A DNA stretch of 30,217 nt from the IMG/VR virus record IMGVR_UViG_3300010885_009766, positions 1 through 30,217 of that record; one strand, written 5' to 3'. A model generated the notes under the pieces. The model did no database searches. It had not been told where the DNA came from and saw nothing but the letters and a program-made list of their open reading frames with translations. This document shows positions 7,370-26,673 of the stretch, piece by piece (within the stretch, counting starts at the first letter, position 1; every line of letters begins with the position of its first letter). Position numbers and translations under genes: made by a program. The DNA comes from a virus.

Positions 7370-7371
7370 TG

Positions 7372-11444: not shown

Positions 11445-11456
11445 TTGTATATCCTA

Positions 11457-12071
11457 TTATGCACGAGCCATTGGCGAAGCGAAGCCCATAGCAGCCGGGT
11501 TAGCACTTCCAAATACATCTAGCGCATTAGATGGCGCAACTGATGCAGCACCAAATGGCGCACCGCCAATAGCTGATGCTGACATCAGGCCAGAGAAGAT
11601 GCCGCCAACACCCTTAGCGATACCAGCAGTGTAGGCTTGTTGACCCATCATGCGGTAGATGCCAGCCTGTGCAACACCCTGCTCACGAGCCAAGGCAGCG
11701 TTAGTAGCAGTCATGTTGAACTCACCAAAGCCCTGACCAAATGCATAGGATGTAAGGTCGCTTGCCGAGCCAGAGAACGGATCGACCGAACCAGCACCAG
11801 CACGAGCAGCAATAGCAGCGGCAGTCATGTTAGTCCTTTGCAGAACAGCCACACCCTGCTGCTTGTATTTTAGTTCTTCAGCCTGTGCGCGAAGCTGAGC
11901 CTGTTTAGCCTGAGCATCGTACATAGCTTGCTGCTGGTTACCACTAGCAAATGCTCCAACAGCGGAGGCTATGGAGGCTATAGATCCAACTGCGCTCATA
12001 ATCCCTGATGTAGCAGCGATTGCCGAGCCAGAGACCCCTATTGCGCCAAGAAGTGGTGCTGCTAAAAACAT
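11457..12071 (-). CDS. Internal virion protein, gp14-like
   Basis: A 204-residue protein with a Gly/Ala/Ser-rich hydrophobic N-terminus (about 1-45) that could insert in a membrane. A coiled-coil segment near 48-80 (QQQAMYDAQAKQAQLRAQAE) and more Ala/Gly-rich sequence follow. T7 gp14 (196 residues) has the same size, hydrophobic character and position between gp12 and gp15; it is ejected first and forms a pore in the outer membrane. The gene starts as TAGTATG right after the gp12-like stop. Confidence 0.75.
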   Translation of the reverse strand: MFLAAPLLGAIGVSGSAIAATSGIMSAVGSIASIASAVGAFASGNQQQAMYDAQAKQAQLRAQAEELKYKQQGVAVLQRTNMTAAAIAARAGAGSVDPFSGSASDLTSYAFGQGFGEFNMTATNAALAREQGVAQAGIYRMMGQQAYTAGIAKGVGGIFSGLMSASAIGGAPFGAASVAPSNALDVFGSANPAAMGFASPMARA

Positions 12072-12072
12072 A

Positions 12073-14052: not shown

Positions 14053-14666
14053 TAGAACCTCACGCCAGTAAGACTAAAGTCCTCTATCATTTGATTAGGC
14101 TGGTTAGCACCATCAATGTTCATGGCTTGGCGAAGATAACCACCGCGACCGTTTTCTTGAGGTGTGCCAACAGCAATGGCTTGCCAATACTGACCCTTGG
14201 TAAACTGGTCAGTTACTGGTTCTGCGAAGTGCCAAGCGAGATAGTACTTCAAGATCTGAACGAAATACGAAGGAAGCCTATCTTCTGGCGTGTCGAACTG
14301 ATAATCCGCGTAACATGCTTCATAGTTCGTCAGCACTTTATCCTCGAACACTTCCCATTGGGTAACAGGACGCGCACCGTAGGATGGTGAGTTGAACAAA
14401 GCACGAGGGCCGATGATCATGTCGCCGGGCAATTGATACTCATACCGCCATTCAGAGACGGGAGTGTTCAGAGTGCGAGCGAGTTGGACTTTTTTGAAAC
14501 TGAATGACCACGGATACAGGGTCAGAACAAGAATCTTGATGTCATTGTAAAGGCGATCTGCAATCTGAGCAGAGTCAGAGCCATCACTAAACGACGAAAC
14601 TGGGGCAGCCCCCAGCATAAGTAAAGCATCGTTACAGATTGTCAGCTTGGAATCGCCCGATGCCAT
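14052..14666 (-). CDS. Head-tail adaptor, T7 gp11-like (tail tubular protein A)
   Basis: A 204-residue protein (T7 gp11 has 196). The N-terminus (I-C-N-D-A-L-x-x-L-G, then D-G-S-D-S-A-Q-I) and the W-R-Y-E-Y-Q-L-P-G-D segment near 68-77 are typical of the gp11/gp4-type adaptor ring that joins portal to nozzle. The C-terminal half has the expected Y-x-A-W-H-F-A-E-P helix. It lies directly before the gp12-like gene with an overlapping start, and a GAGG site precedes its ATG. Confidence 0.88.
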   Translation of the reverse strand: MASGDSKLTICNDALLMLGAAPVSSFSDGSDSAQIADRLYNDIKILVLTLYPWSFSFKKVQLARTLNTPVSEWRYEYQLPGDMIIGPRALFNSPSYGARPVTQWEVFEDKVLTNYEACYADYQFDTPEDRLPSYFVQILKYYLAWHFAEPVTDQFTKGQYWQAIAVGTPQENGRGGYLRQAMNIDGANQPNQMIEDFSLTGVRF

Positions 14667-14687
14667 TGGTCACCTCATAAGGGGAAA

Positions 14688-14713
14688 GAGTAGGGAGATT
14701 TCGCCCCCTACTC
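14688..14713 (-). terminator. Stem-loop terminator after the decoration gene
   Basis: On the minus strand GAGTAGGGGG pairs with CTCCCTACTC around a CGAAAT loop (eight perfect pairs, then a G-U and a G-C), followed by TTTCCCC. The inner G-U works only in the minus-strand RNA, which supports that direction. The U run is short, so readthrough into the adaptor gene is likely; partial terminators after the major capsid gene are common in podoviruses. Confidence 0.6.
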
Positions 14714-14723
14714 CTGTAGCATA

Positions 14724-14996
14724 TTAGTCGGTGTCGGTAGCGGAAACGGTCGTGCCATCCGCAATGTCAACCACACCACTCGAATTGCTGTTCACATATG
14801 TGATAACCAGCGAAGGAGTTGTGCTGTCGTACACGAAGATAACATCGCCAACTTTCAGCAACGTCGAAAGCGAATCGAAGTAGCCAGAAGTGTTGATCGT
14901 TGCCTGAGTATCAGCCGACTTGTAGCTGTACAAAGAAGGCGCATTGCCTGCCTTGTTAGCTGCGATGGTATTCCAACCAGTCGATGAAAATGCCAT
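14724..14996 (-). CDS. Small head-associated protein, probable decoration/cement protein
   Basis: A 90-residue, beta-rich, Ser/Thr-rich protein made directly after the major capsid protein, with a strong GGGAG site. It begins M-A-F-S-S-T-G-W-N and has a central L-K-V-G-D-V-I-F-V-Y motif followed by short strands and a D-x-D end, as in a small beta-barrel. The family is common after capsid genes of podoviruses. Position and composition suggest a capsid decoration or cement protein comparable to BPP-1 Bbp16, although similarity to it cannot be confirmed by eye. Confidence 0.6.
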   Translation of the reverse strand: MAFSSTGWNTIAANKAGNAPSLYSYKSADTQATINTSGYFDSLSTLLKVGDVIFVYDSTTPSLVITYVNSNSSGVVDIADGTTVSATDTD

Positions 14997-15012
14997 TGTT
15001 CAAATCTCCCTA

Positions 15013-15855
15013 TCAGGATTCGCGGCAGGTGATTTTGACGATACCTTCATCGTCAATGGCAACCGCACCAGCAGAGAACATGCTGTTCACGAGGAACGAA
15101 GTCTTTTCTGGAACGTAGTTGATCTCGGTCTTCTGAGCCATACCGATACCCATGCCGACTGCATCCTTGTGGAAAGCGTAGCAAGTACGATCCAACGAGC
15201 CGTCAATTGGCAGACCGCCTTCAGCGCGATCACCGAGGGTGACGAACTTGAAGCCGAGGAAGGTATCAATAGAACCAGACACCAGAGCCTGAACCGAGTT
15301 GAAGTCGGTCGAGGTAGTCTGAGTTTCACCGAGCAGACCTTCAAGACCAGCAGCCGAGATAATCATCACACGGCCTTCAGCAGGAACATTGTTCTGATCA
15401 AGCAGCTTCTTGGCGCGGCGAAGTTTAGCAACGTTCAGGTTCGAGTCGGTTGCGCCGATGTCGTTCGAGACGGTCAGCGAAGTCGAAGAAGCAGACAGAG
15501 CGTCGAGGACCAACTGATCCATACGGCGACCGATTGCGTTCGAGACAACCATTACGAGTTCACGGCGTTCGTCGAAGTTTACTTTAGCCTGATGGAAAAT
15601 GTCGCTATATTCAGCAGCATTGTAGTCAGACAAAGTAGCAGTAACCTGAGAATAGGTCACATTCAGCGGGGTTACATCAGTCTGGGGTACACGGATTGTA
15701 GCAGAACCCTTGCCGATTTTTGGGAACTTAACGGTAGAACCTTCAACACCGTTGCGCTCGCGGACCAAACCACCCAAGGAACGCATCCCTTGGAAAGCCT
15801 GTTTTACTTCCGCGTCGAACAGCGTAACAAAGGCGTTTGAGATGCCCTGAGCCAT
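15013..15855 (-). CDS. Major capsid protein
   Basis: A 280-residue protein in the expected place, directly after the scaffold and before the decoration gene. It carries typical capsid features: an N-terminal helix (FDAEVKQAFQGMRSLGGLV), a beta-rich E-loop-like region (about 38-70), a spine helix with R-R-x-D-Q-L-V-L-D-A-L near 130-140, a second long helix (AKLRRAKKLLDQ at about 163-174) and an A-domain-like C-terminus with A-V-G-M-G-I-G. HK97 fold is inferred from family knowledge. It has its own promoter candidate and an AAGGAG site 7 nt before the ATG, which fits high expression. It is shorter than T7 gp10A (345). Confidence 0.88.
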   Translation of the reverse strand: MAQGISNAFVTLFDAEVKQAFQGMRSLGGLVRERNGVEGSTVKFPKIGKGSATIRVPQTDVTPLNVTYSQVTATLSDYNAAEYSDIFHQAKVNFDERRELVMVVSNAIGRRMDQLVLDALSASSTSLTVSNDIGATDSNLNVAKLRRAKKLLDQNNVPAEGRVMIISAAGLEGLLGETQTTSTDFNSVQALVSGSIDTFLGFKFVTLGDRAEGGLPIDGSLDRTCYAFHKDAVGMGIGMAQKTEINYVPEKTSFLVNSMFSAGAVAIDDEGIVKITCRES

Positions 15856-15971
15856 CTGTATCTCCTTGAGTTGTTAATCGCTTTACGGTTAAACGCCGAG
15901 GTTGTCCTAGTGGGCCGCGACTTGAGTGTAAGATCTCCACCTCTTATGCCCGGCTATGTAGGATAGTTATC

Positions 15972-16011
15972 AGGCAGACAGAATATAATCCCATCTGCCT
16001 AATTTTGTCAA
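15972..16011 (-). promoter_or_regulatory. Promoter for the capsid gene with flanking inverted repeat
   Basis: Minus strand: a perfect TTGACA (16006-16011), 18 nt, and TATATT (15982-15987). It lies just after the scaffold stop codon in the 157-bp gap before the capsid ATG. A 7-bp inverted repeat, AGGCAGA (15972-15978) and TCTGCCT (15994-16000), flanks the -10 box, so a protein or an RNA structure could act there. The rest of the gap (15856-15971) holds only the capsid leader and its Shine-Dalgarno site. Confidence 0.6.
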
Positions 16012-16012
16012 A

Positions 16013-16813
16013 TCAACCAAATGCTTTCTGGAAAAGCGTCTCGACTTGGCGGGTATAGTTCTTGTCTTTACCATACCGTTCATCGCCGACCATCGCATAA
16101 AGGTCATCTTTGGACGGCATACCATCAGATGCAGCCACACCAGATGTCGGGATAGACATTTCCCCTGATGCCTGACGGATCTTGTTCATTGCAGACACAA
16201 AGTCAGCACTGGTCGATGCACGGGCAATAGCATTGGTCTCTGATTCACTCAGGACTGTGCGGGACAATTTGCCGAGCCACTGGTTGTTGGCCTGAATAAT
16301 GTCATTAGCGCGTGGACCTAACTTCTTAACCTCGGCCTCACGATTTACTTTAACATTGTCAAACGCTGCACCAGCTTCTTCCAGATAGATCTTGGCAAGC
16401 TCTTCAAATGATTCTTGAGAGATTCCAAGCTCTTTAGATTTGCTGACATACTTCTGGAGAAGGTCATCACCCTCTTCAACACCGATAGACGTAAAGACTT
16501 CCAGATCGTATTTGCCATCTGCTGGAGCCTTATGCTTGCCCTGCGACATTTTAGTCCGCAGTTCCTTGTAAGCAGTTGCCAACTTCTCAACATCTGGGCC
16601 TTCCTTTTCGTCCCAAAACTGTTCTGGGAAAAAGTCTGGGCGTACCCATTCCTCTTCTTCTGTCTCTGTAGTGTCCTCTGCGGTAGGCGCGTTAGGATCT
16701 ACTTCTTTGTGGGAAACAGTTACCTCATCAGGCTTTGCTTCCTCGGTAGTTGCCGTTAACAGGCTCTGGTTGTCGCTGTCATCAGCGGCCTGAGTTGTCT
16801 GTTCTTCTGTCAT
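16013..16813 (-). CDS. Scaffold / capsid assembly protein
   Basis: A 266-residue, very acidic protein (an E/D/T-rich first 70 residues, with a run TEEEE) followed by helical, Lys-rich segments (KELRTKMSQGKHKAPADGKYDLE) and a basic helical tail. This is the usual build of podoviral scaffold proteins such as T7 gp9 (307 residues), which line the procapsid and leave before packaging. It sits between portal and capsid genes and its ATG overlaps the previous stop (ATGA). Confidence 0.82.
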   Translation of the reverse strand: MTEEQTTQAADDSDNQSLLTATTEEAKPDEVTVSHKEVDPNAPTAEDTTETEEEEWVRPDFFPEQFWDEKEGPDVEKLATAYKELRTKMSQGKHKAPADGKYDLEVFTSIGVEEGDDLLQKYVSKSKELGISQESFEELAKIYLEEAGAAFDNVKVNREAEVKKLGPRANDIIQANNQWLGKLSRTVLSESETNAIARASTSADFVSAMNKIRQASGEMSIPTSGVAASDGMPSKDDLYAMVGDERYGKDKNYTRQVETLFQKAFG

Positions 16814-17070
16814 TTAGTCCTCGCTCGTTTGATACGCTCTTCAATGTTGCGGACAATCGAGTTCTGGCCTTCACGAGCAAATCCATGCGATGCTTCCTCG
16901 CCGGGATACCATGATGGCTGCTCAATTGTACGCGCTCGAAGATCGGCTAATACCTTCCGACCTTCATCAGACCCAAAAACGTGAGCGTATATAGCGTCTA
17001 GGTCCGATTGCTTGTTGATCCCACCGTCGACTGGCTGGGCAAAGTCGTTGATAACATCCCAATTATTCAT
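16810..17070 (-). CDS. Bbp19-like small protein between portal and scaffold
   Basis: An 86-residue protein with the family pattern F-G-S-D-E-G-R-K-V-L-A-D-L (about 32-44), a middle W-Y-P-G-E, then R-E-G-Q-N-S-I-V-R-N-I-E-E-R-I near the C-terminus. The same G-x-x-V-L-x-x-L / E-G-x-x-x-x-x-x-x-I spacing is seen in the short proteins related to Bordetella phage BPP-1 Bbp19. Function is not known; the site between portal and scaffold suggests a capsid-assembly or virion role. A GGAG site lies 9 nt upstream, and the start is 1 nt after the portal stop. Confidence 0.7.
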   Translation of the reverse strand: MNNWDVINDFAQPVDGGINKQSDLDAIYAHVFGSDEGRKVLADLRARTIEQPSWYPGEEASHGFAREGQNSIVRNIEERIKRARTK

Positions 17071-17071
17071 G

Positions 17072-18640
17072 TTACATCGCTCCTTGTGGCGGCATCCCTT
17101 GCTCTGGAGCCTGACCCTGTTGCATTGCCTGTGCTTGCTGCGCCAGTTGCTGCATTTGCTGCATCATCATTTGTCGTTCTTCTGGTGAGGTGAGAAGAGA
17201 AGTAGGGACACCCAGACGATTAGCAATAAAGTCAATAACCGCATCCTTTTTAAGAGCCAACTGAGCCTCTGGCCCCATACCCCCAACGACTTGCATGAAT
17301 TGCAGGACATCGTTCACTTCATCCATGTTCTGCGCCTGAGCCAATGGTGAGATCGGCACAACCTTAACTTCCTGACCGTTAACTTTCAGAGGCATGTCAA
17401 TCAACCCCTGATCATCCATGATAAACAGGACACGGTTGATGATTGGAATCATGGCTTCCGTGATCAAGCGACCAAACGCCGAGCCAAGGTTCTGACTCAA
17501 CTCCTTCATGCGCTGCACAATCTCGGTAGCCGACCGAGCAGACATGTTATCTGGCGGCAGACTATCATCCAGCAGCGTCTTTTTGATGTTCATCCGCAGA
17601 TCAGGGATAATGATGTTGCTGACGTTGAAGTCTGCTGCGCGAGGAAGAGGCTGGAGGCTAGGACCAGTTGGACCACCGTTACGCGCCACAGGAATGATAG
17701 CACCCGGCTGAATACGGATGGTCTGAGGGTTTAAAACGCCATCATCTGCCGCTGTATATACGCCAGCAATAGCCAAAGATGCGTTCTTCAGCACCAATTC
17801 CAGCACCTTATTAAGCGTCTTGATGTCAGGCATGGCAGAAAGCAAAGGCCCACGACCGTAAACTTCACCAGAGACCTTCATGAATCGCGCAACGATCCAA
17901 GGACTGATCTTCATCGTGCGATAGACCAGTTCCTCTTTGCTCTTTTCGTGGATCACATGGTAGCAGTACACGCCAAGATCCTTGTTATAGACCGTAGCCT
18001 CCAACAGATTGATCTCGTCGGTGGGTTTACGCTGGATCTGATCCTTCAACACCGCTGGTATCTTGGCATCAGTCCACTGACGGTCGATAACCTCGCCTTT
18101 AATCCGTAATTTACGGTAAACATTGTCTACCGAACCATGCGGACCCTCTTCCAGAGCCACAAGATACTGCGGAACTGGGGTAAAGCGGATAGGTGCAGTC
18201 TCATCGCCGGGCTGAATGAGCATAACAGCAGTACCGACAGCCAGATCCAGCAGGAACTCTGACATTGCCAGATCGAAATTGGTCTGCCGCATGATGTTGA
18301 ACATGCGTTCAGTGTAGTTGTCTAATATAATCTGGACTTCTGAGGTGCGTTCAGTAGGGATAGCGGTCCCTGCTTGCAGTCTGCACCACACACGATATGG
18401 AGGGAACAACCCTGATTGAATCCTGTTCGCAAATCTCTGCGTAGAATCAATAGCAGTCGAATCATAGACCTTCTGCATTTTATTCTGACCAGGCGTACCA
18501 CCTTCATAATTGCCATCGTACAGGTTCCGCTGTGGGAGAGCATACTCATAGCACTCCTGATAGATTGCTCGCCATTCATCCTTGCGAGCATTAGCCAGCG
18601 TGGACCGCTTAATGACTTCTTCAACCTTCATTCGTGCCAT
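17072..18640 (-). CDS. Portal (head-tail connector) protein, T7 gp8-like
   Basis: A 522-residue protein (T7 gp8 has 536). Family signatures include the N-terminal R-x-x-W-x-x-x-Y-x-x-x-x-x-Y-x-L-P segment (about 22-37), the G-x-x-x-M-Q-K-V-Y-D-S-T motif near 50-61, a Y-G-R-G-P near 259-263 and a long C-terminal helix with an extreme Gln/Met-rich tail (M-M-M-Q-Q-M-Q-Q-L-A-Q-Q-A). It forms the dodecameric DNA channel, docking the terminase for packaging and the gp11-like adaptor later. An AAGGAA site precedes the ATG. Confidence 0.92.
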   Translation of the reverse strand: MARMKVEEVIKRSTLANARKDEWRAIYQECYEYALPQRNLYDGNYEGGTPGQNKMQKVYDSTAIDSTQRFANRIQSGLFPPYRVWCRLQAGTAIPTERTSEVQIILDNYTERMFNIMRQTNFDLAMSEFLLDLAVGTAVMLIQPGDETAPIRFTPVPQYLVALEEGPHGSVDNVYRKLRIKGEVIDRQWTDAKIPAVLKDQIQRKPTDEINLLEATVYNKDLGVYCYHVIHEKSKEELVYRTMKISPWIVARFMKVSGEVYGRGPLLSAMPDIKTLNKVLELVLKNASLAIAGVYTAADDGVLNPQTIRIQPGAIIPVARNGGPTGPSLQPLPRAADFNVSNIIIPDLRMNIKKTLLDDSLPPDNMSARSATEIVQRMKELSQNLGSAFGRLITEAMIPIINRVLFIMDDQGLIDMPLKVNGQEVKVVPISPLAQAQNMDEVNDVLQFMQVVGGMGPEAQLALKKDAVIDFIANRLGVPTSLLTSPEERQMMMQQMQQLAQQAQAMQQGQAPEQGMPPQGAM

Positions 18641-18651
18641 GAATATATTCC

Positions 18652-18792
18652 TTATTTGGCTTTCTGCTTCTGGGCCTTACCAGCGGCAGACAGAGCCATA
18701 GCAATTGCTTGTTTCTGTGGGTAACCCTTTTTCATTTCAGCCTTGATATTTGCTGAAACAACCTTTTGAGAAGAACCTTTTTTAAGAGGCAT
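18652..18792 (-). CDS. Short Lys-rich phage protein (46 aa)
   Basis: [17 protein letters not shown] at the start and [15 protein letters not shown] near the end. This start-and-end pattern belongs to a family of about 40-50 residues, found in many phage packaging and virion clusters and known only as a domain of unknown function. The ATG lies inside the last codons of the preceding gene (GTTATGCC), an 11-nt overlap, so it is probably coupled. The helical Ala/Lys/Gln half could bind nucleic acid, but there is no evidence for this. Confidence 0.75.
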
Positions 18793-18931
18793 AACCCATC
18801 TCCTGCTTTTTCACTGGCATACCCATCATGTCAGCACCAGTTGGATTAGATTCCATAGGCATCGAGTCTTTCTTCTTTGCCTTCATCTTCTTCTTCACCA
18901 TTGCGTTGAACGGTTTAGCTTGCTTCGCCAT
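18782..18931 (-). CDS. Short Lys/Met-rich protein (49 aa)
   Basis: Starts [21 protein letters not shown] and has a Met-rich second half (D-M-M-G-M-P-V). It starts 2 nt after the previous stop and overlaps the next small gene, in line with the tight run of tiny genes ahead of the portal. The coding claim rests on the uninterrupted frame, overlap spacing and basic composition like its neighbours. Function unknown. Confidence 0.6.
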
Positions 18932-18933
18932 GA

Positions 18934-19239
18934 TCAGTCCTTCATCTTCTTGAGTCGTTCGGACAAACGCTTTGCTTTCGCCTTAGCATCTGCGGTGGAT
19001 GATGCACCCCATGCCCTGAGAGAGAGCAGTTTGCGTGTCGGATTGCCCTTCTCGTCGTAGTCTGGGCCATCATTGCCAGCCATACGAGCCAAGAAACTAG
19101 CCTTCCTACCAAGATCTGCCCTTCCTGCTGGCGCACCTTTGACGGGAGCCTTCAGGTTAGAACCTTCAGTGCGCTTGAAGTAGGCGCGACCAGCGGCGTT
19201 AAGGCCACCTTTCGGATCTTGATACTTCTTCGCAACCAT
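18934..19239 (-). CDS. Conserved basic phage protein (KGGLNAAGRAYFKRTEG family)
   Basis: A 101-residue basic protein with a highly recognisable N-terminal motif, P-K-G-G-L-N-A-A-G-R-A-Y-F-K-R-T-E-G (about 9-26). Then come R-K-A-S-F-L-A-R-M-A-G (44-54) and a helical Lys/Arg-rich end after S-L-R-A-W-G-A-S-S. This family is widespread in phages and some bacteria and carries only a domain-of-unknown-function label. The charge suggests contact with DNA or with an acidic partner such as the scaffold, which is inference. It overlaps the previous gene by 1 nt. Confidence 0.75.
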   Translation of the reverse strand: MVAKKYQDPKGGLNAAGRAYFKRTEGSNLKAPVKGAPAGRADLGRKASFLARMAGNDGPDYDEKGNPTRKLLSLRAWGASSTADAKAKAKRLSERLKKMKD

Positions 19240-19463
19240 TAGGAAGGTCCGAGTGTAGTCCCCAGACCCTGCTCTGCATTAGTGCGCTCAGGGCTAAGGA
19301 GTGCTTGCATACCGCCACGGCTCTGTGCAACACGACGAGCCTGCAACTGCTTCTGCTGATCAGCCTCTTTCTTGTCGAGAGAAGCCTGTTGTTCAGCCAT
19401 CAGTGCTTCCTGTTTAGACGTATCCTGCACTGGCATTTTCGGTTTGGAAAAAAGACCGCCCAT
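19239..19463 (-). CDS. Small Gln/Lys-rich virion-cluster protein (74 aa)
   Basis: Starting at the ATG at 19463 (overlap TAATG with the stop of the GNAT-like gene) gives M-G-G-L-F-S-K-P-K-M-P and a 74-residue protein with a coiled-coil-like centre (EALMAEQQASLDKKEADQQK). The frame is open 11 codons further upstream, but the coupled ATG and the M-G-G-L-F start, usual for this kind of protein, favour the shorter form. Function unknown. Confidence 0.65.
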   Translation of the reverse strand: MGGLFSKPKMPVQDTSKQEALMAEQQASLDKKEADQQKQLQARRVAQSRGGMQALLSPERTNAEQGLGTTLGPS

Positions 19464-19954
19464 TATTTGACCCTCGAATAAAAGATGCAATCGCACCCGT
19501 CTGGAGTGTATTTGCGGACCAATCCTTCAAATTCGAAGCCAATAGTCCGCGCCCATTTAACAGCCGAAACATTATCACAGCGCACTACTATCTGCAATCT
19601 GTGCCAAATCAGGTTGTTTTCTAAACTATTAATAGACTTTCTAGATAATTTAGTTAACTTTATGGGGTTTTTCTTGAAGGTTGGTATATCGCCCATCATC
19701 CACAACTCATGGACACCAGGCCAGATCTGCATTTCACCAAAAGAAATAACGGGCTTGCCGAGAAGAAGGATAGTTGCGGAGTGTCCATTGTCGGCATAGT
19801 GTTGCACTGTCTGGGCAAAGTTTGGTGTATGCTTGATTGTCTTTTGCTGACCAGCATCAAGATCCATCAGGTGCAGATGTCCCCAGTGAAACGGCACTGC
19901 CTTGCAATCATCTGGTAGAATTTGGTTGAGATGTTCGATAAAGTTAAAAGACAT
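19463..19954 (-). CDS. GNAT-fold, T7 gp13-like internal virion/assembly protein
   Basis: A 163-residue protein with a GNAT-like plan. A helical start leads to a strand-rich middle (S-A-T-I-L-L-L-G-K-P-V-I-S-F-G-E), then the typical acetyltransferase C-terminus: N-x-S-A-V-K-W-A-R-T-I-G-F-E-F-E-G near 128-145 and Y-T-P-D-G-C-D-C-I-F-Y-S-R at the end. T7 gp13 (138 residues) and its relatives share this fold but probably do not act as enzymes. The canonical acetyl-CoA loop (R/Q-x-x-G-x-G/A) is not evident here, so a structural or assembly role is more likely. Its start overlaps the large terminase by 11 nt. Confidence 0.7.
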   Translation of the reverse strand: MSFNFIEHLNQILPDDCKAVPFHWGHLHLMDLDAGQQKTIKHTPNFAQTVQHYADNGHSATILLLGKPVISFGEMQIWPGVHELWMMGDIPTFKKNPIKLTKLSRKSINSLENNLIWHRLQIVVRCDNVSAVKWARTIGFEFEGLVRKYTPDGCDCIFYSRVK

Positions 19955-21485
19955 TGAAATCCAACGGGGCTATAACCTGGTGTTTAGGATGATGAGCAGT
20001 ATGACCACGGGTAAGGTGGCGAAATTCCCCTCCACCAAGCATGAGATAACCGTATGCATCACCAACGTGCGAGTGCTCATTTTTATTAGGGGCGTCTCGA
20101 AAACGATCTGTGCCGCCTCCAACCCCAACGCGCTTAAAGTGATACCCGCCCCCAAGGGCTTTTCTAACCCGAACACACGCTGAGTCCACCTGTAGTCCGG
20201 GCTTGCCGTCGATCAGGCGTTGCATTGGAGCAGCACCAGCCTCGCGTCGAACCATGAAGTCGTTGCTTTGGGTGGGCTGGGCGTTGAGGCCAAGGCTTTT
20301 CAAGTGCTGGAACGCAGTCACTTCAAAGATTCCGTCTCGTGCAATACCAGCAGGATCACCCCAGATGAAGATCTGAGCCTTTGGATAGCGGCTGTTTACG
20401 TCACCGATAAGGATCTGGGCAAAGCGTTCCAAGCCCATGTCGAAAGATACGATTTCGTGCAGGATGTTCCACCTACCAGTTTGCAACCGCTGCCCAAAAA
20501 CAGCAGCAGGAGTGAGACCAAAATCAAGGCCAATATGTAGTGGTAAGTCTGGTCTATAATCAATCTTATCTTGGACCATTTGAGAGTCCAGATATTCCTG
20601 CCAAACAGCTTTTCCTTCTTGAACGTAAACAAACTGACCTCCTACATAACACCTGATCCAGTCAAGATTCTTGCCGCCAAGCTGCTGCTCATAGTACCCA
20701 TTGACTAGATTGTTGATGTTCTCGGCAACAGGATTGATCAGCCAGTGTTTGCCAGCAGCAGGAATAGCCTCTGGAGCATCGTGCATCACCTCGATCATGC
20801 CTGGTGGCTGCTTGAAGAACGTCCACTTGTATTTGCCTTGGACAGTCTCCTTCTCGCTCAGTCGATACCACCAGTGGTCTGAATCCATTGGATTAGTATC
20901 AGCCCAGATCCCACGCCAAGGAGCACCACCATTAGCTCTAGTGGGATAGCGACCAACGCGGTGAGTAAGCCCTTGGACAACAGCCAGCGGTAGTTCACGC
21001 GCTTCATTGATCCATGCTCCCGTGAGTTCCAGTGACAGCAGTTTACGCACATCTTTGGGCTGGTCGAGGGCTAGAAAGATTACTTCGCAGTCAAGACCGG
21101 GGATTCCTTCGCGTGTCGGCAACCTCAAATGATGGGTAATAGGGGGCGACCAGCGCATTGGACCCCAGATATTCTCTGGAAAGATCTCATTCCATGTCTT
21201 GATTGTCGTAGTTCTGAGTTCAGGATAGCTGTTTCGCACGATCACAAAGCGGGAATATCGCACATTGTCGATAGGGCTTGGCGGTTGTTTAATAGCTCGA
21301 AGGATTATCTCGGCGGCGCAAGCATAAGACTTACCAGAACCCACAGGGCCGAGCAGACCACGAAAGAAACTATCATCTCCGAGGAACTTCCAGACAGTGG
21401 GAGACTTGGAAAAATCGAAGTTGAGTCCATCAATGGCTGGTTCCTCAGTCGGCTTCCTCTTTGCTGACGCGCCTTTGATCTTCAT
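19944..21485 (-). CDS. terL: Terminase large subunit
   Basis: A 513-residue packaging motor. The ATPase Walker A is G-P-V-G-S-G-K-S at 46-53. A candidate Walker B/coupling segment is L-T-G-A-W-I-N-E-A-R-E-L at 154-165, and R-V-G-R-Y-P follows at 176-181. The RNase H-like nuclease part shows three spaced acidic sites: D321 in G-L-D-F-G, D377 in W-G-D-P-A-G and D476 in H-V-G-D-A-Y-G-Y. Both halves thus look intact. It overlaps the small terminase as ATGA. Confidence 0.95.
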   Translation of the reverse strand: MKIKGASAKRKPTEEPAIDGLNFDFSKSPTVWKFLGDDSFFRGLLGPVGSGKSYACAAEIILRAIKQPPSPIDNVRYSRFVIVRNSYPELRTTTIKTWNEIFPENIWGPMRWSPPITHHLRLPTREGIPGLDCEVIFLALDQPKDVRKLLSLELTGAWINEARELPLAVVQGLTHRVGRYPTRANGGAPWRGIWADTNPMDSDHWWYRLSEKETVQGKYKWTFFKQPPGMIEVMHDAPEAIPAAGKHWLINPVAENINNLVNGYYEQQLGGKNLDWIRCYVGGQFVYVQEGKAVWQEYLDSQMVQDKIDYRPDLPLHIGLDFGLTPAAVFGQRLQTGRWNILHEIVSFDMGLERFAQILIGDVNSRYPKAQIFIWGDPAGIARDGIFEVTAFQHLKSLGLNAQPTQSNDFMVRREAGAAPMQRLIDGKPGLQVDSACVRVRKALGGGYHFKRVGVGGGTDRFRDAPNKNEHSHVGDAYGYLMLGGGEFRHLTRGHTAHHPKHQVIAPLDFNVF

Positions 21486-21955
21486 GCCACCTCCTCTTTT
21501 TGCTTTTGATTATCTTCAGCCGAAAGATCGAGGATTGGAGTGCCAATGCCTCCAACGACCTCTTCTTCATCGTCCTCTTCGATAACTTCTTTGACTTCAT
21601 AACTCGTCACCGCTGGGCCATGCAGATTAATACCAATGATAGACGGCCTATTCTCATCCTGCACTACCTCCATCAAGCCATAGTGCTTGGCAAGAGTATT
21701 CAAAGCCCTCATCTTGTCGTGCATCTCTATCTCGATCTGATTACCATGCATCGTCGGCGTAACCTTCACCTTCTTGATAGCAGCCTTAACATGGCTAGCA
21801 AGATCCTCAGAAGGCCGTACAGACACATTGCCAGCATTATCCCACCAAAGTACGTCCGTAATAGAAGAAGCCGCTACAGCCTCTAATTCTTGCAGCACAG
21901 CATCACGCTTTGGAGTAGCAATATCCCTACGGATAGAACGCATTGATCTACGCAT
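21482..21955 (-). CDS. terS: Terminase small subunit, lacking the usual N-terminal HTH
   Basis: A 157-residue protein directly before and overlapping terL. It matches the C-terminal half of Terminase_2-type small subunits: L-Q-E-L-E-A-V-A-A-S-S-I-T-D-V near 21-35, A-I-K-K-V-K-V-T-x-x-x-x-G-N-Q-I-E-I-E near 58-77, and D-K-M-R-A-L-N-T-L-A-K-H-Y-G-L at 80-94, then a very acidic tail (EEDDEEE). The N-terminal helix-turn-helix that normally recognises the packaging site is missing. An in-frame TAA lies two codons upstream of the ATG, and no other open frame with an HTH is seen there. Role: start of packaging with TerL; how it recognises DNA is unclear. Confidence 0.75.
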   Translation of the reverse strand: MRRSMRSIRRDIATPKRDAVLQELEAVAASSITDVLWWDNAGNVSVRPSEDLASHVKAAIKKVKVTPTMHGNQIEIEMHDKMRALNTLAKHYGLMEVVQDENRPSIIGINLHGPAVTSYEVKEVIEEDDEEEVVGGIGTPILDLSAEDNQKQKEEVA

Positions 21956-21986
21956 GGAGCCTTAACCTCTTAAATTCAATAAAACA

Positions 21987-22015
21987 TAGATAAGCCTTCT
22001 ACAGAAACTTGTCAA
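21987..22015 (-). promoter_or_regulatory. Late promoter upstream of the terminase genes
   Basis: Minus strand: perfect TTGACA (22010-22015), 17 nt, TATCTA (21987-21992, a weak -10). It lies 31 nt before the small-terminase ATG, in AT-rich sequence, and is the only promoter-like site upstream of the packaging and virion operon. Confidence 0.5.
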
Positions 22016-22184
22016 AAAATATACTGAGTTAACTAAATGTTGATGCAGATCTCAAATTTCCCCTGCACAAGCACTGTGGATTGAATTTATGAAAATGGAA
22101 AAAATATTGAGGGGGAGACCCCGAGAGGAACGGGCAGGGGTGGGGGGCGGGTGTCCCCTCTCTGTGTGACGCGTCCTGTGTAAT
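22016..22184. other. Gene-free segment with a G-rich, structure-forming tract
   Basis: Part of the only gene-free stretch above 300 bp (21956-22323). An AT-rich part (22016-22110) is followed by GGGG-GAGA-CCCC (22111-22122), a perfect 4-bp hairpin with a GNRA-type loop. Then comes a strong G-quadruplex motif on the plus strand, G3-CA-G4-T-G6-C-G3 (22132-22151). GAGAGG (22123-22128) and CCTCTC (22157-22162) could close a larger stem around it. Read on the minus strand, the GGGGTCTCCCC hairpin is followed by CTCAATATTTTTT, so it may also end the rep-like transcript. Packaging-site, origin and terminator roles all remain possible. Confidence 0.6.
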
Positions 22185-22332
22185 GGGATGGATGCATTAT
22201 ATATGGTGCACATTGCATTTTATATTGTGCATTTGTTTCAGATTGTTGGACCCATTTGGTGGGATGAATGCATTATATATTGGGCATTTTATTTAATGCA
22301 TTGGGCATTTTATATTGTGCATTTTATATTGG
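22185..22332. repeat. Iteron-like AT-rich direct repeats (candidate origin)
   Basis: Seen directly: (a) a 20-bp exact repeat, GCATTTTATATTGTGCATTT, at 22215-22234 and 22305-22324, 90 bp apart. (b) Two tandem 21-bp units, 22280-22300 and 22301-22321, 18 of 21 identical, beginning TTGGGCATTTTAT. (c) Two tandem 14-bp units, 22305-22318 and 22319-22332, 13 of 14 identical. (d) GGGATG-R-ATGCATTATATAT at 22185 and 22261. (e) Three ATGCAT palindromes (22192, 22268, 22296). Iterons of about 21 bp beside a Rep-like gene are the plasmid-type origin arrangement. The rep-like stop codon (22324-22326) lies inside the array. Confidence 0.7.
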
Positions 22333-23004
22333 GAACACGACCGACATCGACGTTGGAACCGTGCCAGTGCGTGCCAGATTAGCCCGGATAAATGCCAGCG
22401 TATCGATCGACACTTGTTCCGGCGTTAGACCATTATCAGCTAATCGATTGGCTGTGGTTTGATTGTTTGAATAAATCGCATTAGAACCGAATTGATTGAT
22501 TGCTCTATTAAATGAATTGAACAATTGCCTACCCTTTAAATCCCTATCTTTATGAGTCGGATTGCCCTTGTTTTCCCCTATCTTGATTGCCTCTTTCTCT
22601 TTTGGTTCTTGTGACCAATTGAACGGTTCGGCTTCTCTGATTTGTTCTCCGGTCGCTAATGGTGTTTGTTTGCCTTCATAGAGTATCTGGTATCGATTGG
22701 TTAACCACTTACTCACTTGTCCATCATACCATCCCGGCTTTAAGAGTCGCACCAATCCGAAGCTTTCCAGTCTTTTAATACTGGCCATGATTCCGTTGCG
22801 CCCAATCCCGGCGCATCTTTCGATTGTTTCATGCGTTGGCCAGCAGACCCCGGAATAATTGGTATAAAAGCACAAAGTGGTTAGGACGCGCCAATCAACC
22901 AAGCTTAAATCGCATTCAAGCGCATGCTTAGGAATAACCGAATATCGGCGCAAATCATCCGGAAGCACAATCTTTTTTGCATTTTTTTTGTCTAATGTTT
23001 TCAT
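22324..23004 (-). CDS. Winged-helix Rep-like / regulator protein
   Basis: A 226-residue protein. Residues of about 33-110 form a winged helix: W-R-V-L-T-T-L-C-F-Y, then C-W-P-T-H-E-T-I-E-R-C-A-G-I-G-R-N-G-I-M-A-S recognition helix, then K-R-L-E-S-F-G-L-V-R-L and a wing ending N-R-Y-Q-I-L-Y. This resembles the HTH_36 type found in plasmid and phage replication initiators and some regulators. The C-terminal half is polar, with N-Q and K-E rich stretches and a final helix. It has its own promoter with a palindrome and ends inside an iteron-like array, which favours an initiator or autoregulator. No strong Shine-Dalgarno site precedes the ATG. A pure transcription regulator is the alternative. 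Confidence 0.65.
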   Translation of the reverse strand: MKTLDKKNAKKIVLPDDLRRYSVIPKHALECDLSLVDWRVLTTLCFYTNYSGVCWPTHETIERCAGIGRNGIMASIKRLESFGLVRLLKPGWYDGQVSKWLTNRYQILYEGKQTPLATGEQIREAEPFNWSQEPKEKEAIKIGENKGNPTHKDRDLKGRQLFNSFNRAINQFGSNAIYSNNQTTANRLADNGLTPEQVSIDTLAFIRANLARTGTVPTSMSVVFPI

Positions 23005-23011
23005 GGTGTTA

Positions 23012-23040
23012 GTTATAAATCATGCAACGATTCGAATCAA
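23012..23040 (-). promoter_or_regulatory. Promoter of the rep-like gene with palindromic operator
   Basis: Minus strand: TTGATT (23035-23040), 17 nt, TATAAC (23012-23017). The perfect 10-bp palindrome GATTCGAATC (23029-23038) covers the end of the -35 box and the spacer, a usual place for an autorepressor. A second inverted repeat (AATTCA 23040-23045, TGAATT 23054-23059, eight-T loop) adjoins it. The winged-helix protein is the natural candidate to bind here. Confidence 0.5.
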
Positions 23041-23065
23041 ATTCATTTTTTTTTGAATTATCCTA

Positions 23066-23094
23066 TTGACAGCCCAATCATCTTAAACAATTAT
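23066..23094 (+). promoter_or_regulatory. Promoter of the Gp88-like cassette
   Basis: Perfect TTGACA (23066-23071), 17 nt, AATTAT (23089-23094; four of six). It lies 37 nt before the ATG of the Gp88-like gene, which also has a GGAG site 8 nt upstream. It is divergent from the rep-like promoter, with only about 25 bp between the two -35 boxes. Confidence 0.5.
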
Positions 23095-23131
23095 TGAACA
23101 ATCGAAACACCAACCACCCGGAGATTCTACC

Positions 23132-23923
23132 ATGTCCATCATTTACGATTTATCCAAAGTAAATCCTGCCCTTGTTGCTCAAATTCATGCATCGCCTAAA
23201 TATACAAAATGGTTTTCCGAAAAACCTGATCAGATGCTTCGCTTGGACGGTTCAACCAAGGTGATAAAGGGCAACAAGCTTGGATATCGTACCGCCATTT
23301 TGTATCTGTCACCTAGCAATATATCGGGACAACAATTATGCCCTAATGCCAAGCTTGCAGGATGCGAAGAGGCATGTCTTAACACTAGTGGTCGTGGTGC
23401 TATGAATGGCGTGCAAATGTCGCGATTGCGTAAAGCTTTATTCTGGCAACAGTATCGTGATGAAGCTATTGCTTTGATCATGCATGAAATAAAACTAGCA
23501 GAAGCACAAGCGGCGCGTGAAGGTTGGATATTGCTTGTTCGGTTGAACGGGACAAGTGACATCCGGTGGGAAAATTATGGCATTATCCAAGCTTTTCCGA
23601 ATGTGCAATTCTACGACTACACCAAGCTTGCTAATCGCAAAAACATTCCAGCCAATTATGATTTGACGTTTAGCTATTCTGGAATTGCATCGTTTCAATC
23701 AACCGTTCTAAAAGCATTGGCCACTAATCAGCGCATGGCGGTAGTGTTTCGCCACCGTTCCAATGTGCAAAGCATGCTTTCCAATGGCGATGCATTCCTA
23801 GGCCTAACCGTAGTGGACGGCGACGATACAGATATTAGACACTTGGACCCGCAAGCTAGTGTCGTTGCGCTCTATGCTAAAGGCAAGGCAAAGACTGACC
23901 AATCTGGATTTGTTGTAAACTAA
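23132..23923 (+). CDS. Gp88/DUF7227-like protein with conserved Cys motif
   Basis: A 263-residue protein with several blocks I recognise from the Gp88/DUF7227-type phage proteins of unknown function: L-S-P-S-N-I-S-G (59-66), C70-P-N-A-K-L-A-G-C78-E-E-A-C82-L-N-T-S-G-R-G, R-L-N-G-T-S-D-I-R-W-E (137-147), F-Y-D-Y-T-K (160-165), L-T-F-S-Y-S (178-183) and V-V-D-G-D-D-T-D-I-R-H-L-D-P (227-240). The C-x7-C-x3-C spacing could hold a metal or iron-sulfur cluster but is not the standard radical-SAM motif. Conserved polar blocks at strand ends hint at an alpha/beta barrel enzyme. It is first in a three-gene plus-strand cassette with its own promoter and terminator. The reaction, if any, is unknown. Confidence 0.75.
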   Translation: MSIIYDLSKVNPALVAQIHASPKYTKWFSEKPDQMLRLDGSTKVIKGNKLGYRTAILYLSPSNISGQQLCPNAKLAGCEEACLNTSGRGAMNGVQMSRLRKALFWQQYRDEAIALIMHEIKLAEAQAAREGWILLVRLNGTSDIRWENYGIIQAFPNVQFYDYTKLANRKNIPANYDLTFSYSGIASFQSTVLKALATNQRMAVVFRHRSNVQSMLSNGDAFLGLTVVDGDDTDIRHLDPQASVVALYAKGKAKTDQSGFVVN

Positions 23924-23935
23924 TAGGGGGTTACC

Positions 23936-24022
23936 ATGACACACTGGATTTATGACATCTTGGAAATGATAGGGATTGCGTCATTCGTTACGTTTATCAT
24001 GATGCTAGCAATAGCATTTTAA
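23936..24022 (+). CDS. 28-residue single-span membrane peptide
   Basis: A short open frame: MTHWIYDILEMIGIASFVTFIMMLAIAF. It is preceded by TAATAGGGGGTTACC directly before the ATG, nearly identical to the leader of the next gene (TAATAGGGGGTTAAC). An AGGGGG Shine-Dalgarno site is therefore present at good spacing, which is the main reason to call it real. About 17 of the last 20 residues are hydrophobic, giving one transmembrane helix with no charged tail. It could be a small toxin-like or regulatory membrane peptide, or a partner of the flanking proteins. Confidence 0.6.
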   Translation: MTHWIYDILEMIGIASFVTFIMMLAIAF

Positions 24023-24034
24023 TAGGGGGTTAAC

Positions 24035-24589
24035 ATGTATTTAGAAGCAAACCAAGTGCCAGCACACTTGCGCGCAGGATATACTGGCAAAAAGTTTCAA
24101 GCTCTCCCGCAAGAAACTGTTACCGTGCCACGTGACGCGGGGCTGTGGTCGGGCGGAACGCGGGACACGTATACGGCTATAGAACTAGCAACCGGACGCG
24201 TTGCGGAAGCATCCGACAACATGTCAGCACCCTGGAATGAGGCGCGCCAGGATAGGATAATACCCCTTAAATCCGGCTATGCCGTTGTTAGGCATAGTTT
24301 CTTTTGCGGCAACGATATGGGATTAACTTTCTATGTGCATCCGGATGATATCGTTAAACTGTTACCAGATAACGCGGGTTTAGGCCTAACCGATATCGAA
24401 CTTAAATTTCTAGCCGTTACGCGTGGGATAAAAAGCGGCTACCGGGCTGAATATTTTAGCCGGATGAAATTAAACCAAGCCGATATAGACAGCTATAAAG
24501 CTAAATTTACAGCTATGGGCCTGTTAAATAAGGCCGGGGCCATAACCGTTAAGGGCAAAAACGCGTGTGAGAATATCCGGCCATACTAG
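24035..24589 (+). CDS. Unknown phage protein with C-terminal winged-helix-like region
   Basis: A 184-residue protein. The N-terminal half has V-P-A-H-L-R-A-G-Y-T-G-K-K-F-Q (about 8-22) and L-W-S-G-G-T-R-D-T-Y (37-46), a pattern I recall from uncharacterised phage proteins. A central W-N-E-A and G-Y-A-V-V-R-H-S-F-F-C-G segment follows. From about residue 117, L-T-D-I-E-L-K-F-L, a helix, L-N-Q-A-D-I-D-S-Y and G-L-L-N-K-A-G-A-I-T-V-K-G-K resemble a winged helix. It is last in the cassette, with the duplicated AGGGGG leader. It could bind DNA or RNA; the function is unknown. Confidence 0.7.
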   Translation: MYLEANQVPAHLRAGYTGKKFQALPQETVTVPRDAGLWSGGTRDTYTAIELATGRVAEASDNMSAPWNEARQDRIIPLKSGYAVVRHSFFCGNDMGLTFYVHPDDIVKLLPDNAGLGLTDIELKFLAVTRGIKSGYRAEYFSRMKLNQADIDSYKAKFTAMGLLNKAGAITVKGKNACENIRPY

Positions 24590-24615
24590 GAAAGCACAAC
24601 GTTGCGATGAAACTA

Positions 24616-24641
24616 AGGGGCCGCAAAGCCCCTCTTTTTTT
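24616..24641 (+). terminator. Intrinsic terminator of the Gp88-like cassette
   Basis: AGGGGC (24616-24621) pairs with GCCCCT (24628-24633) around a CGCAAA loop, followed by CTTTTTTTA. It lies 27 nt after the last stop codon of the cassette, between convergent operons. The rest of 24642-24711 shows no gene. Confidence 0.85.
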
Positions 24642-24711
24642 ATCTGCTACCCTGATATCAATGAGGCTAGACTTGCCAGCGTGTGACCGTCTTTGTGCGT
24701 TTAAACCACAC

Positions 24712-24954
24712 TCAAAAAGGGATGTCGTCCCCATCGAGTGCGTCCTTAGCAGAAACAAGGGGCTTGGCAGGGGATCGTGCCGCGTCCTTTAGGTTAACGA
24801 ACCCGCCAAAGTATTTAGAGCCGTCCTCATTCTCGTTAATGAATCCGCTCAACCAATACTCTACCCCATTGACGTTAACAGAACCAAGATAGGGCGGCGA
24901 CTTTTCAGTCTTTGGCTTGGTGTTTTTCCGCAATGCGAATGTATTCTCTTTCAT
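24712..24954 (-). CDS. Small protein with SSB-type C-terminal tip
   Basis: An 80-residue protein. The body has alternating strand-like segments (Y-L-G-S-V-N-V-N-G-V-E-Y-W-L-S-G-F-I, then K-Y-F-G-G-F-V-N-L) consistent with a small beta barrel. The last residues are A-L-D-G-D-D-I-P-F, nearly identical to the acidic D-D-D-I-P-F tip with which bacterial SSB recruits partner proteins. It closes the replication operon, which supports a single-strand-binding or SSB-mimic role. It is less than half the length of typical SSB (about 170), so a full OB fold would be minimal. A GGGTAACT leader precedes the ATG. Confidence 0.6.
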   Translation of the reverse strand: MKENTFALRKNTKPKTEKSPPYLGSVNVNGVEYWLSGFINENEDGSKYFGGFVNLKDAARSPAKPLVSAKDALDGDDIPF

Positions 24955-24955
24955 G

Positions 24956-25327
24956 TTAGTTACCCTTTGCTATTGTTGCTAGTCGATTAAAACGCTCGAC
25001 TACCCGCGCTCGTTCTTCTGCCGTCAGGACTGGCATGGTTTTAAACCTATCCTTAGACGGCTTGAATTGATCATCGTATTGTTCGGGCCATTCGGTCGGG
25101 ACCATGTAAGCCCGGTCCTGGCGCATACAACTAGCTAGGAACGCGGCCCTTTTCATCAACCCAACCTGTTTAAAATACCGATACCATTCTCTACCCTGCG
25201 GCCCATTGGTAATCACGTGGCCTAATGATCCGTCTGGATTTTTTGTGGCATACATGTGGTTGAGAGCAGCCAAAGCCCAAGGGTCTAGTTGTTCGTGGAC
25301 TGGTTTTTCTTGAACTCGGAAAGCCAT
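24956..25327 (-). CDS. Unknown protein of the replication operon (123 aa)
   Basis: A 123-residue protein with no family I recognise. Visible are a D-P-W-A-L-A-A-L-N-H helix near 15-24, an R-E-W-Y-R-Y-F-K-Q-V-G-L segment at about 46-57, a Trp-Pro-Glu-Gln stretch and an Arg/Glu-rich C-terminal helix (TAEERARVVERFNRLA). Its start overlaps the O-like gene by 43 nt and has a GGAGG site about 10 nt upstream. Placed between the O-like and SSB-tail genes, it probably helps replication, perhaps as a loader accessory, but this is from position only. Confidence 0.65.
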   Translation of the reverse strand: MAFRVQEKPVHEQLDPWALAALNHMYATKNPDGSLGHVITNGPQGREWYRYFKQVGLMKRAAFLASCMRQDRAYMVPTEWPEQYDDQFKPSKDRFKTMPVLTAEERARVVERFNRLATIAKGN

Positions 25328-26166: not shown

Positions 26167-26673
26167 TTATGCATACCTCTTTTCTACGCCTCGATCAAGT
26201 TTATCTTGATACCTCCTGCACCCGTGGAGGATGGTGGTATGGTCTTTGTTGCCCATGTAGCCAGCTATCCGAGGGTAGGACCAGCCAAGATCATGGCGCA
26301 GATGCCAGTAGATTTCATGGCGGCAGTCAGGCAGATTCCCATACCGAAACTCAGCCCTAACATCCTTTGGTGAGTATCCCCACTTCTCGCAACCGCGCAG
26401 CACAATCGACCGCGCCTGTTCCATGACGTTTACAGGAGGTGCGTCACTGGTCAGATACCAGATGTCTCGGTCGTATGTCCGCAGTGGTGGATTAGTGGCT
26501 AGCATACGGCGCAACCGTTCACGCCTATCGCCATGCTTTGTGATCTCGATTGGTTTCTTGCTGATCGAATCAACGACCTCGATCCCCGCTTTGGTCTTGT
26601 GCATAACCTGTGGACAGGGACGAAATTTATTTCGTATGTCTTTGTATCTGTTGATAAAATCTAGGTCATTCAT
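26167..26673 (-). CDS. DnaA domain IV-like DNA-binding protein
   Basis: A 168-residue protein. Its C-terminal part (about 117-156) matches the DNA-binding domain IV of DnaA: C-R-H-E-I-Y-W-H-L-R-H-D-L-G, then S-Y-P-R-I-A-G-Y-M-G-N-K-D-H-T-T-I-L-H-G-C-R. The D-H-T-T at 144-147 is the DnaA-box signature. There is no ATPase domain, so it cannot act as DnaA by itself. It may bind an origin, compete with host DnaA at its boxes or regulate the operon. The N-terminal 100 residues are unlike anything I recognise. It overlaps the rusA-like gene by 8 nt, so the two are coupled. Confidence 0.75.
   Translation of the reverse strand: MNDLDFINRYKDIRNKFRPCPQVMHKTKAGIEVVDSISKKPIEITKHGDRRERLRRMLATNPPLRTYDRDIWYLTSDAPPVNVMEQARSIVLRGCEKWGYSPKDVRAEFRYGNLPDCRHEIYWHLRHDLGWSYPRIAGYMGNKDHTTILHGCRRYQDKLDRGVEKRYA

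Follow-up and report, generated by a model that had tools for sequence, protein, structure and literature searches.

We have found that a slot of small genes, flanked by a replication gene on one side and an SSB-like gene on the other, exchanges its cargo among sister phages, and that Gp88, the largest product it encodes in the phage studied here, is probably a compact and divergent enzyme of the radical SAM type. The DNA analysed (the window) is a viral stretch of 30,217 nucleotides, the IMG/VR record IMGVR_UViG_3300010885_009766, in which three plus-strand genes for proteins of 263, 28 and 184 amino acids are set between minus-strand genes. The radical-SAM reading of Gp88 appears to be new within the literature searched. 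In some sister phages the same slot holds the anti-restriction protein ArdC, which suggests that the slot may serve takeover or counter-defence.

Results

The left border of the slot is a replication-initiator-like gene (HTH_36; 22,324 to 23,004, minus strand), which was assigned from Pfam and PHROG matches, is syntenic in the sister phages and lies on the minus strand in all 14 loci compared. The right border is an SSB-like gene (24,712 to 24,954, minus strand; PHROG match), syntenic in the loci L003, L267, L274 and L281. Between them, on the plus strand, a promoter-like sequence TTGACA-17-AATTAT (23,066 to 23,094), matching the consensus at 10 of 12 positions, is followed by the genes for Gp88 (23,132 to 23,923), a hydrophobic, predicted membrane peptide (23,936 to 24,022) and a third protein (24,035 to 24,589), and an intrinsic terminator, AGGGGCCGCAAAGCCCCT-CTTTTTTT (24,616 to 24,640), closes the slot. 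TTGACA has the same position in L003, L038 and L267, which are the closest relatives; across ten sister loci checked, the hexamer occurs at a variable distance of at most 200 bases from the left border gene in eight and is absent from that range in L274 and L289. As a class, promoter-like matches show no excess over chance in the window (7 observed, 7.6 expected). The terminator is letter-identical in L003 and L267, the only two of the 42 listed sister slots with the exact sequence; its exact stem is absent from the other 40. This framing of the slot applies to the nearer sister phages alone. Both inner gene junctions share the same arrangement of stop codon, 12-base leader and next start codon, with the leader TAGGGGGTTACC in the first copy (23,921 to 23,938) and the same sequence in the second (24,020 to 24,037), both on the plus strand. 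The search pattern TAATAGGGGGTTAMCATG has exactly two copies, where 0.02 would be expected from shuffles, a figure that has to be read in the knowledge that the pattern was derived from the very two copies it then matched. The first-pass annotation had seen here a three-gene cassette between a TTGACA site and a terminator, with shared translation leaders and the look of a moron, and this anatomy is confirmed: the cassette is real, its leaders match at both inner junctions, and its own promoter-like site and terminator are retained in the closest relatives (L003 and L267, and for TTGACA also L038). According to the available part of a study of cluster K mycobacteriophages (PMC3203893), start-associated sequences in those phages are also short G-rich repeats directly 5' of start codons, with a function termed undetermined there; the leader in the window differs from them in sequence and has only two copies, in one slot. 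A DNA search of window positions 5000 to 25,000 against phages gave no match. Elsewhere in the window, next to a replication-initiator-like gene, a 168-residue protein (26,167 to 26,673, minus strand) contains the C-terminal DNA-binding domain of DnaA (PF08299, E 3.9e-8).

Accessory slots with exchangeable content are already known. To compare this one between phages we used the terminase gene as anchor, and the best 80 sister loci of IMG/VR together with L003, L267 and L269-L272 made up a list of 86 loci, 60 of which carry one or more of the flank and cargo genes searched for. At least 700 bases were readable past the left border gene in 42 of the listed sister loci, giving 43 slots with the window. 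The slot is truncated in L273, L275, L278 and L286; in L273, from the same contig as L038, a Gp88 gene begins at the contig edge, and this locus was left out of the slot count. Strings of small plus-strand genes with ribosome-binding sites were counted in 11 of these 43 listed slots (the window, L003, L267, L274, L277, L279, L280, L281, L284, L287 and L289), which are ten distinct gene-filled slots because L279 and L280 are identical there. Among these ten, Gp88 fills three (the window, L003 and L274) and ArdC four (L277, L279/L280, L284 and L289). The peptide family is present in four, with Gp88 in the window and L003 and without it in L267 and L281, and the third gene is found in the window only. 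L274 and L284 carry other membrane micro-ORFs, of 57 and 34 codons, and L287 other small genes. Profiles run over all 43 listed slots detected Gp88 in three, the peptide in four and the third gene in one. ArdC was called by PF08401 and PF18818 in L277 and L280 and by BLASTP to L277 in L284 (95%) and L289 (44%), and a tblastn search with ArdC over all 86 listed sister loci matched only L277, L279, L280, L284 and L289. The exchange can be followed in L267. Its available terminase stretch, 156 of 513 residues, shows 100% identity with the window, and its terminase small subunit 96%. Between the borders these two phages have the peptide alone in common (93%); the slot of L267 has neither Gp88 nor the third gene, and the 15.8-kb record of this phage contains no GP88 match. 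The remaining 32 of the 43 listed slots, which belong to more distant phages (terminase identity 67-75%), were set aside by eye as having no comparable gene string, and their plus-strand frames mostly look like shadows of minus-strand genes; in L340 a different gene string begins 1.4 kb away.

The window Gp88 belongs to the Pfam family PF17338 (GP88), which it matches with an E value of 2.8e-39 and 135.8 bits at a curated cut-off of 24.4, and it also matches phrog_1617 (E 5e-63). Neither library gives this family a function label, and the superfamily is proposed in the present work. The family had been called undescribed, which is correct for its function and incorrect for the family itself, as Gp88 is already in Pfam and PHROGs. 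The further label of a DUF7227-like protein did not hold: the window protein has no match to that Pfam family, and the matches of two remote Gp88 members are weak (E 0.034 and 0.44; 14.2 and 10.5 bits), below its cut-off of 27. Within the literature searched we found no paper on PF17338, DUF7227, DUF5131 or "Gene product 88" in connection with phages, and the gp88 in the available part of PMC11797047 is just a gene number in cluster K phages. Of 50,697 phage records, 265 contain Gp88; mycobacteriophages account for 235 of these, and the rest are phages of Pelagibacter, Roseobacter, Rhizobium, Xanthomonas and further hosts. In IMG/VR the family is found in at least 587 places. It is rare in bacterial genomes; 6 of 299 genomes of one phylum matched, four of these six matches being DUF5131 proteins. 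In L001 the Gp88 string is followed downstream by a gene for a GcrA-like cell-cycle regulator (2859 to 3329; PF07750, E 4.5e-12), presumably a hint at an alphaproteobacterial host. A viral structure library contains Gp88-like domains within proteins of 995-1211 amino acids of uncultured phages, and such fusions might reveal partners of Gp88.

Conservation was examined in 133 loci with a Gp88 gene, which reduced to 103 non-redundant ones after grouping at 90% likeness or more; three loci with Gp88 cut by a contig end were dropped, and third-gene loci without Gp88 had been excluded beforehand. The residues C70, C78, C82, R137, N139, T141, D143, E147, D162, Y163, D231 and D234 are invariant in all 103. 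Because the loci were retrieved with short peptide patterns, most of which fall within the YDYTK, NGT-D and AKG blocks, residues such as D162 and Y163 were partly selected. The cysteines lie outside the main patterns; one of six patterns in one early search covered them. Their spacing is x7,x3 in 91 of the 103 loci, x6,x3 in 11 and x5,x2 in one. The Cys, RLNGTSDI, FYDYTK and VDGDD blocks reported earlier are all present in the first gene, and conservation of the cysteines, on which the earlier reading of the gene had been made to depend, is complete in this sample. Two remote members from a search of another phylum, L263 (1492 to 2214) and L266 (1459 to 2304, minus strand), have a C-x6-C-x3-C-Y-A motif and an additional C-x2-C-x2-C near the C-terminal end. 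Judged from their sequences, these motifs may be compatible with an Fe-S protein; neither member matches a radical SAM family in NCBIfam or a solved structure.

The structure model of Gp88 has a pLDDT of 89.1 and a pTM of 0.87. In it, a strand of residues 52-56 leads into the cysteine loop, followed by helices, a strand of residues 133-137 and the NGTSD block. The three cysteines, C-x7-C-x3-C (codons at 23,339 to 23,377, plus strand), are thus located in the model in the loop after beta-strand 1, as in the radical SAM superfamily, and this loop is the part of the model with the lowest confidence (mean of 52 for residues 81-90). The RLNGTSDI block (23,540 to 23,563, plus strand) comes after beta-strand 2, and the FYDYTK block (23,609 to 23,626, plus strand), which doubled as a search pattern, forms beta-strand 3. 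The GGE motif of radical SAM enzymes lies after strand 2, and we take the position of RLNGTSDI to correspond to it. When solved structures were structurally re-aligned to the model, rows 1-22 of 50 were all radical SAM enzymes, as were 28 of the 50 overall, the label of some rows being our assumption. The Z scores of these first 22 rows are 4.9-6.3, so that the best is 6.3 and none reaches 8. The radical SAM rows include NifB, QueE, spore photoproduct lyase, a viperin-like protein, EpeE and TYW1, and also SkfB, TigE, BlsE, DesII, RlmN and lysine aminomutase. QueE, NifB and the viperin-like protein are the best re-aligned solved structures; Gp88 differs from them in its cysteine spacing and has no significant sequence match to them, nor to any other solved structure. 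Foldseek alone returned no significant match (nothing below E 0.056), and about three of its first 50 rows are radical SAM enzymes. The Pfam model Radical_SAM (PF04055) matched none of 29 Gp88 members up to E 10, although most weak matches are removed by the filters of that search. The canonical cysteine spacing of radical SAM enzymes is C-x3-C-x2-C, with known exceptions, and C-x7-C-x3-C deviates from it. The earlier suggestion of a metal- or cluster-dependent alpha/beta barrel is supported by the predicted barrel, the re-alignment and the invariant cysteines.

A further connection leads from Gp88 to DUF5131, which we take to be PF07505 with the older phage name Gp37/Gp68. Of four DUF5131 proteins scanned, two exceed the curated cut-off of the Pfam GP88 model (24.4 bits), L145 with 32.5 and L168 with 30.2, and all 14 weak GP88 matches inspected in two phyla (L167-L170 and L253-L262; seven further ones were left out) are of the DUF5131 type. 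All three of the three DUF5131 proteins compared with TIGR04471, "radical SAM mobile pair protein A", matched it with E values of 2.9e-27 to 1.4e-10, in every case far under the cut-off of that family (95.6 of 355 bits). Both DUF5131/TIGR04471 and Gp88 have an early three-cysteine motif, then N-x-x-SD and then TK-x(3)-R, in the same order; they differ in that DUF5131 reads G-C-x6-C-x2-C-Y-A and Gp88 reads C-x7-C-x3-C-L and ends with AKGKAK..D..GF. The window Gp88 matches neither the DUF5131 nor the TIGR04471 model, the cross-match being found only in the reverse direction. With our own GP88 profiles DUF5131 scored no higher than shuffled sequences, and a profile-profile comparison of the two families gave E 0.54; with 145 representatives P was 0.017, the reversed control giving 0.47. 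Direct sequence proof of homology by our own profiles failed, and only the broader Pfam model bridges the families. The gene table of one paper, in the part available, calls Gp37Gp68 an ssDNA-annealing protein.

The 28-residue peptide is a real gene, since its homologues have the same length and its non-synonymous changes are fewer than the synonymous ones (pN 0.20-0.29 against pS 0.46-0.92 in three pairs). Its relatives lie in L267 (3001 to 3087) and in the slot of L281, and by eye L058 has a look-alike at +505 from Gp88. A membrane micro-ORF was found within 1.5 kb of Gp88 in 43 of the 103 loci; the excess is only mild because small ORFs of all kinds are denser there, and we rejected such micro-ORFs as a general partner of Gp88. 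The third protein, with a beta-rich N-terminal and a helical C-terminal part in a low-confidence model (mean pLDDT 69.8), has no family in Pfam or PHROGs, no solved relative and no useful fold match; weak STING-like and immunoglobulin fold rows are not believed. The winged-helix end ascribed to it turned out weaker than claimed, amounting to sub-threshold Pfam matches (E 0.15 and 0.25) and the poorly predicted helical tail. Relatives of the third gene are found in L002/L061, an 11-kb fragment, and in a phage record of 485 kb; neither record has a Gp88 match.

Discussion

Could the three genes of the window act jointly as one three-part system? Such a unit is suggested by the matching leaders and 12-base spacing at both junctions and by the peptide adjoining the third gene, with Gp88 upstream, in both the window and L001. 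The distribution speaks against it. Near Gp88, the third-gene profile was found in just 2 of the 103 non-redundant loci and the peptide profile likewise in 2 (3 of 133 with redundancy), the third gene is missing from the slot of L003, the slot of L267 holds the peptide without either of the other two, and the 485-kb phage record, which contains a relative of the third gene, has no Gp88 match. We consequently rejected the three-part system, which we regard as highly improbable, and with it the earlier view of the trio as one functional unit, for which rare joint occurrence of the two larger proteins had been named beforehand as a refuting outcome; the third gene is an occasional passenger of the slot. 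Nor does Gp88 have any other constant partner, as the commonest same-strand neighbour cluster accompanies it in 15 of the 103 loci; one scanned member of that cluster is a relative of Phage_L5_gp82 (PF25735). As to Gp88 itself, the protein might instead be a TIM-barrel-like hydrolase or binding protein in which the three cysteines hold zinc or another structural metal. The PDB list of Foldseek is headed by a phosphodiesterase and glycosidases, all of them weak, a zinc site would suit three cysteines together with many invariant Asp and Lys residues, and the canonical radical SAM spacing is missing. We nevertheless consider such a protein unlikely, in view of the placement of the cysteine loop after beta-strand 1, the unbroken run of radical SAM enzymes at the head of the re-alignment and the cross-family tie to DUF5131 and TIGR04471. 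A divergent radical-SAM-type enzyme remains the probable identity of Gp88, and such an enzyme would be expected to bind an Fe-S cluster and to perform AdoMet chemistry.

More questions are raised by the purpose of the slot. An anti-defence role had been proposed for the cassette, and an anti-defence gene is plausible at this position, given that ArdC, classed as anti-restriction by Pfam and PHROGs, fills four of the ten distinct gene-filled slots among the listed loci. ArdC and Gp88 are separate protein families by Pfam, and the available part of a paper on polyvalent proteins (PMC5512222) includes ArdC and mentions neither gp88 nor radical SAM. The presence of ArdC in the same slot is the sole functional pointer, to which the membrane peptide and the third gene add none. 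Is it possible, then, that the cargo consists of neutral genes or of accessory genes for nucleotide metabolism or replication, and that the alternation with ArdC reflects small early genes gathering in one place? The slot does lie between replication genes, only a minority of the scanned cargo genes hit a family with a known function, and of the four slots with ArdC three are closely related at the DNA level (82-90% identity). Against this stand the anti-restriction class of ArdC and the conservation of Gp88 in phages with hosts as different as Mycobacterium, Pelagibacter, Rhizobium and Xanthomonas, a distribution that speaks for a function under selection. We hold this explanation to be possible, if somewhat doubtful, and find a slot for takeover or counter-defence moderately favoured as part of the following model.

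According to this model, a podovirus-like phage lineage carries an exchangeable slot for presumed early genes, framed by a promoter and a terminator, in which sister phages have substituted one short series of small genes for another. Expression of the slot is likely to be early, because it sits among replication genes, and the reading as takeover or counter-defence early in infection is suggested because some sister phages place ArdC there. Gp88, the present main gene, would most likely be a compact radical-SAM-type enzyme built as a partial (beta/alpha) barrel. Its three invariant cysteines may bind an Fe-S cluster beside AdoMet, and radical chemistry may thereby be initiated on a substrate from the host or the phage. 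The 28-residue peptide is retained with or without Gp88, and the third gene only occasionally travels along. A bolder version, to which we give a small chance, is that Gp88 founds a large, unrecognised branch of radical-SAM-type enzymes that modify a host or phage molecule early in order to escape defence; the enzyme would be carried in an exchangeable slot next to a membrane micropeptide, which can stay behind when the enzyme is replaced. The tiny membrane peptide emerges in any case as a recurring part of the slot. Such a slot lists candidate early-takeover genes by their position and not by their sequence, and the combination of predicted Fe-S/AdoMet chemistry with a defined slot would make Gp88 a target for experiment.
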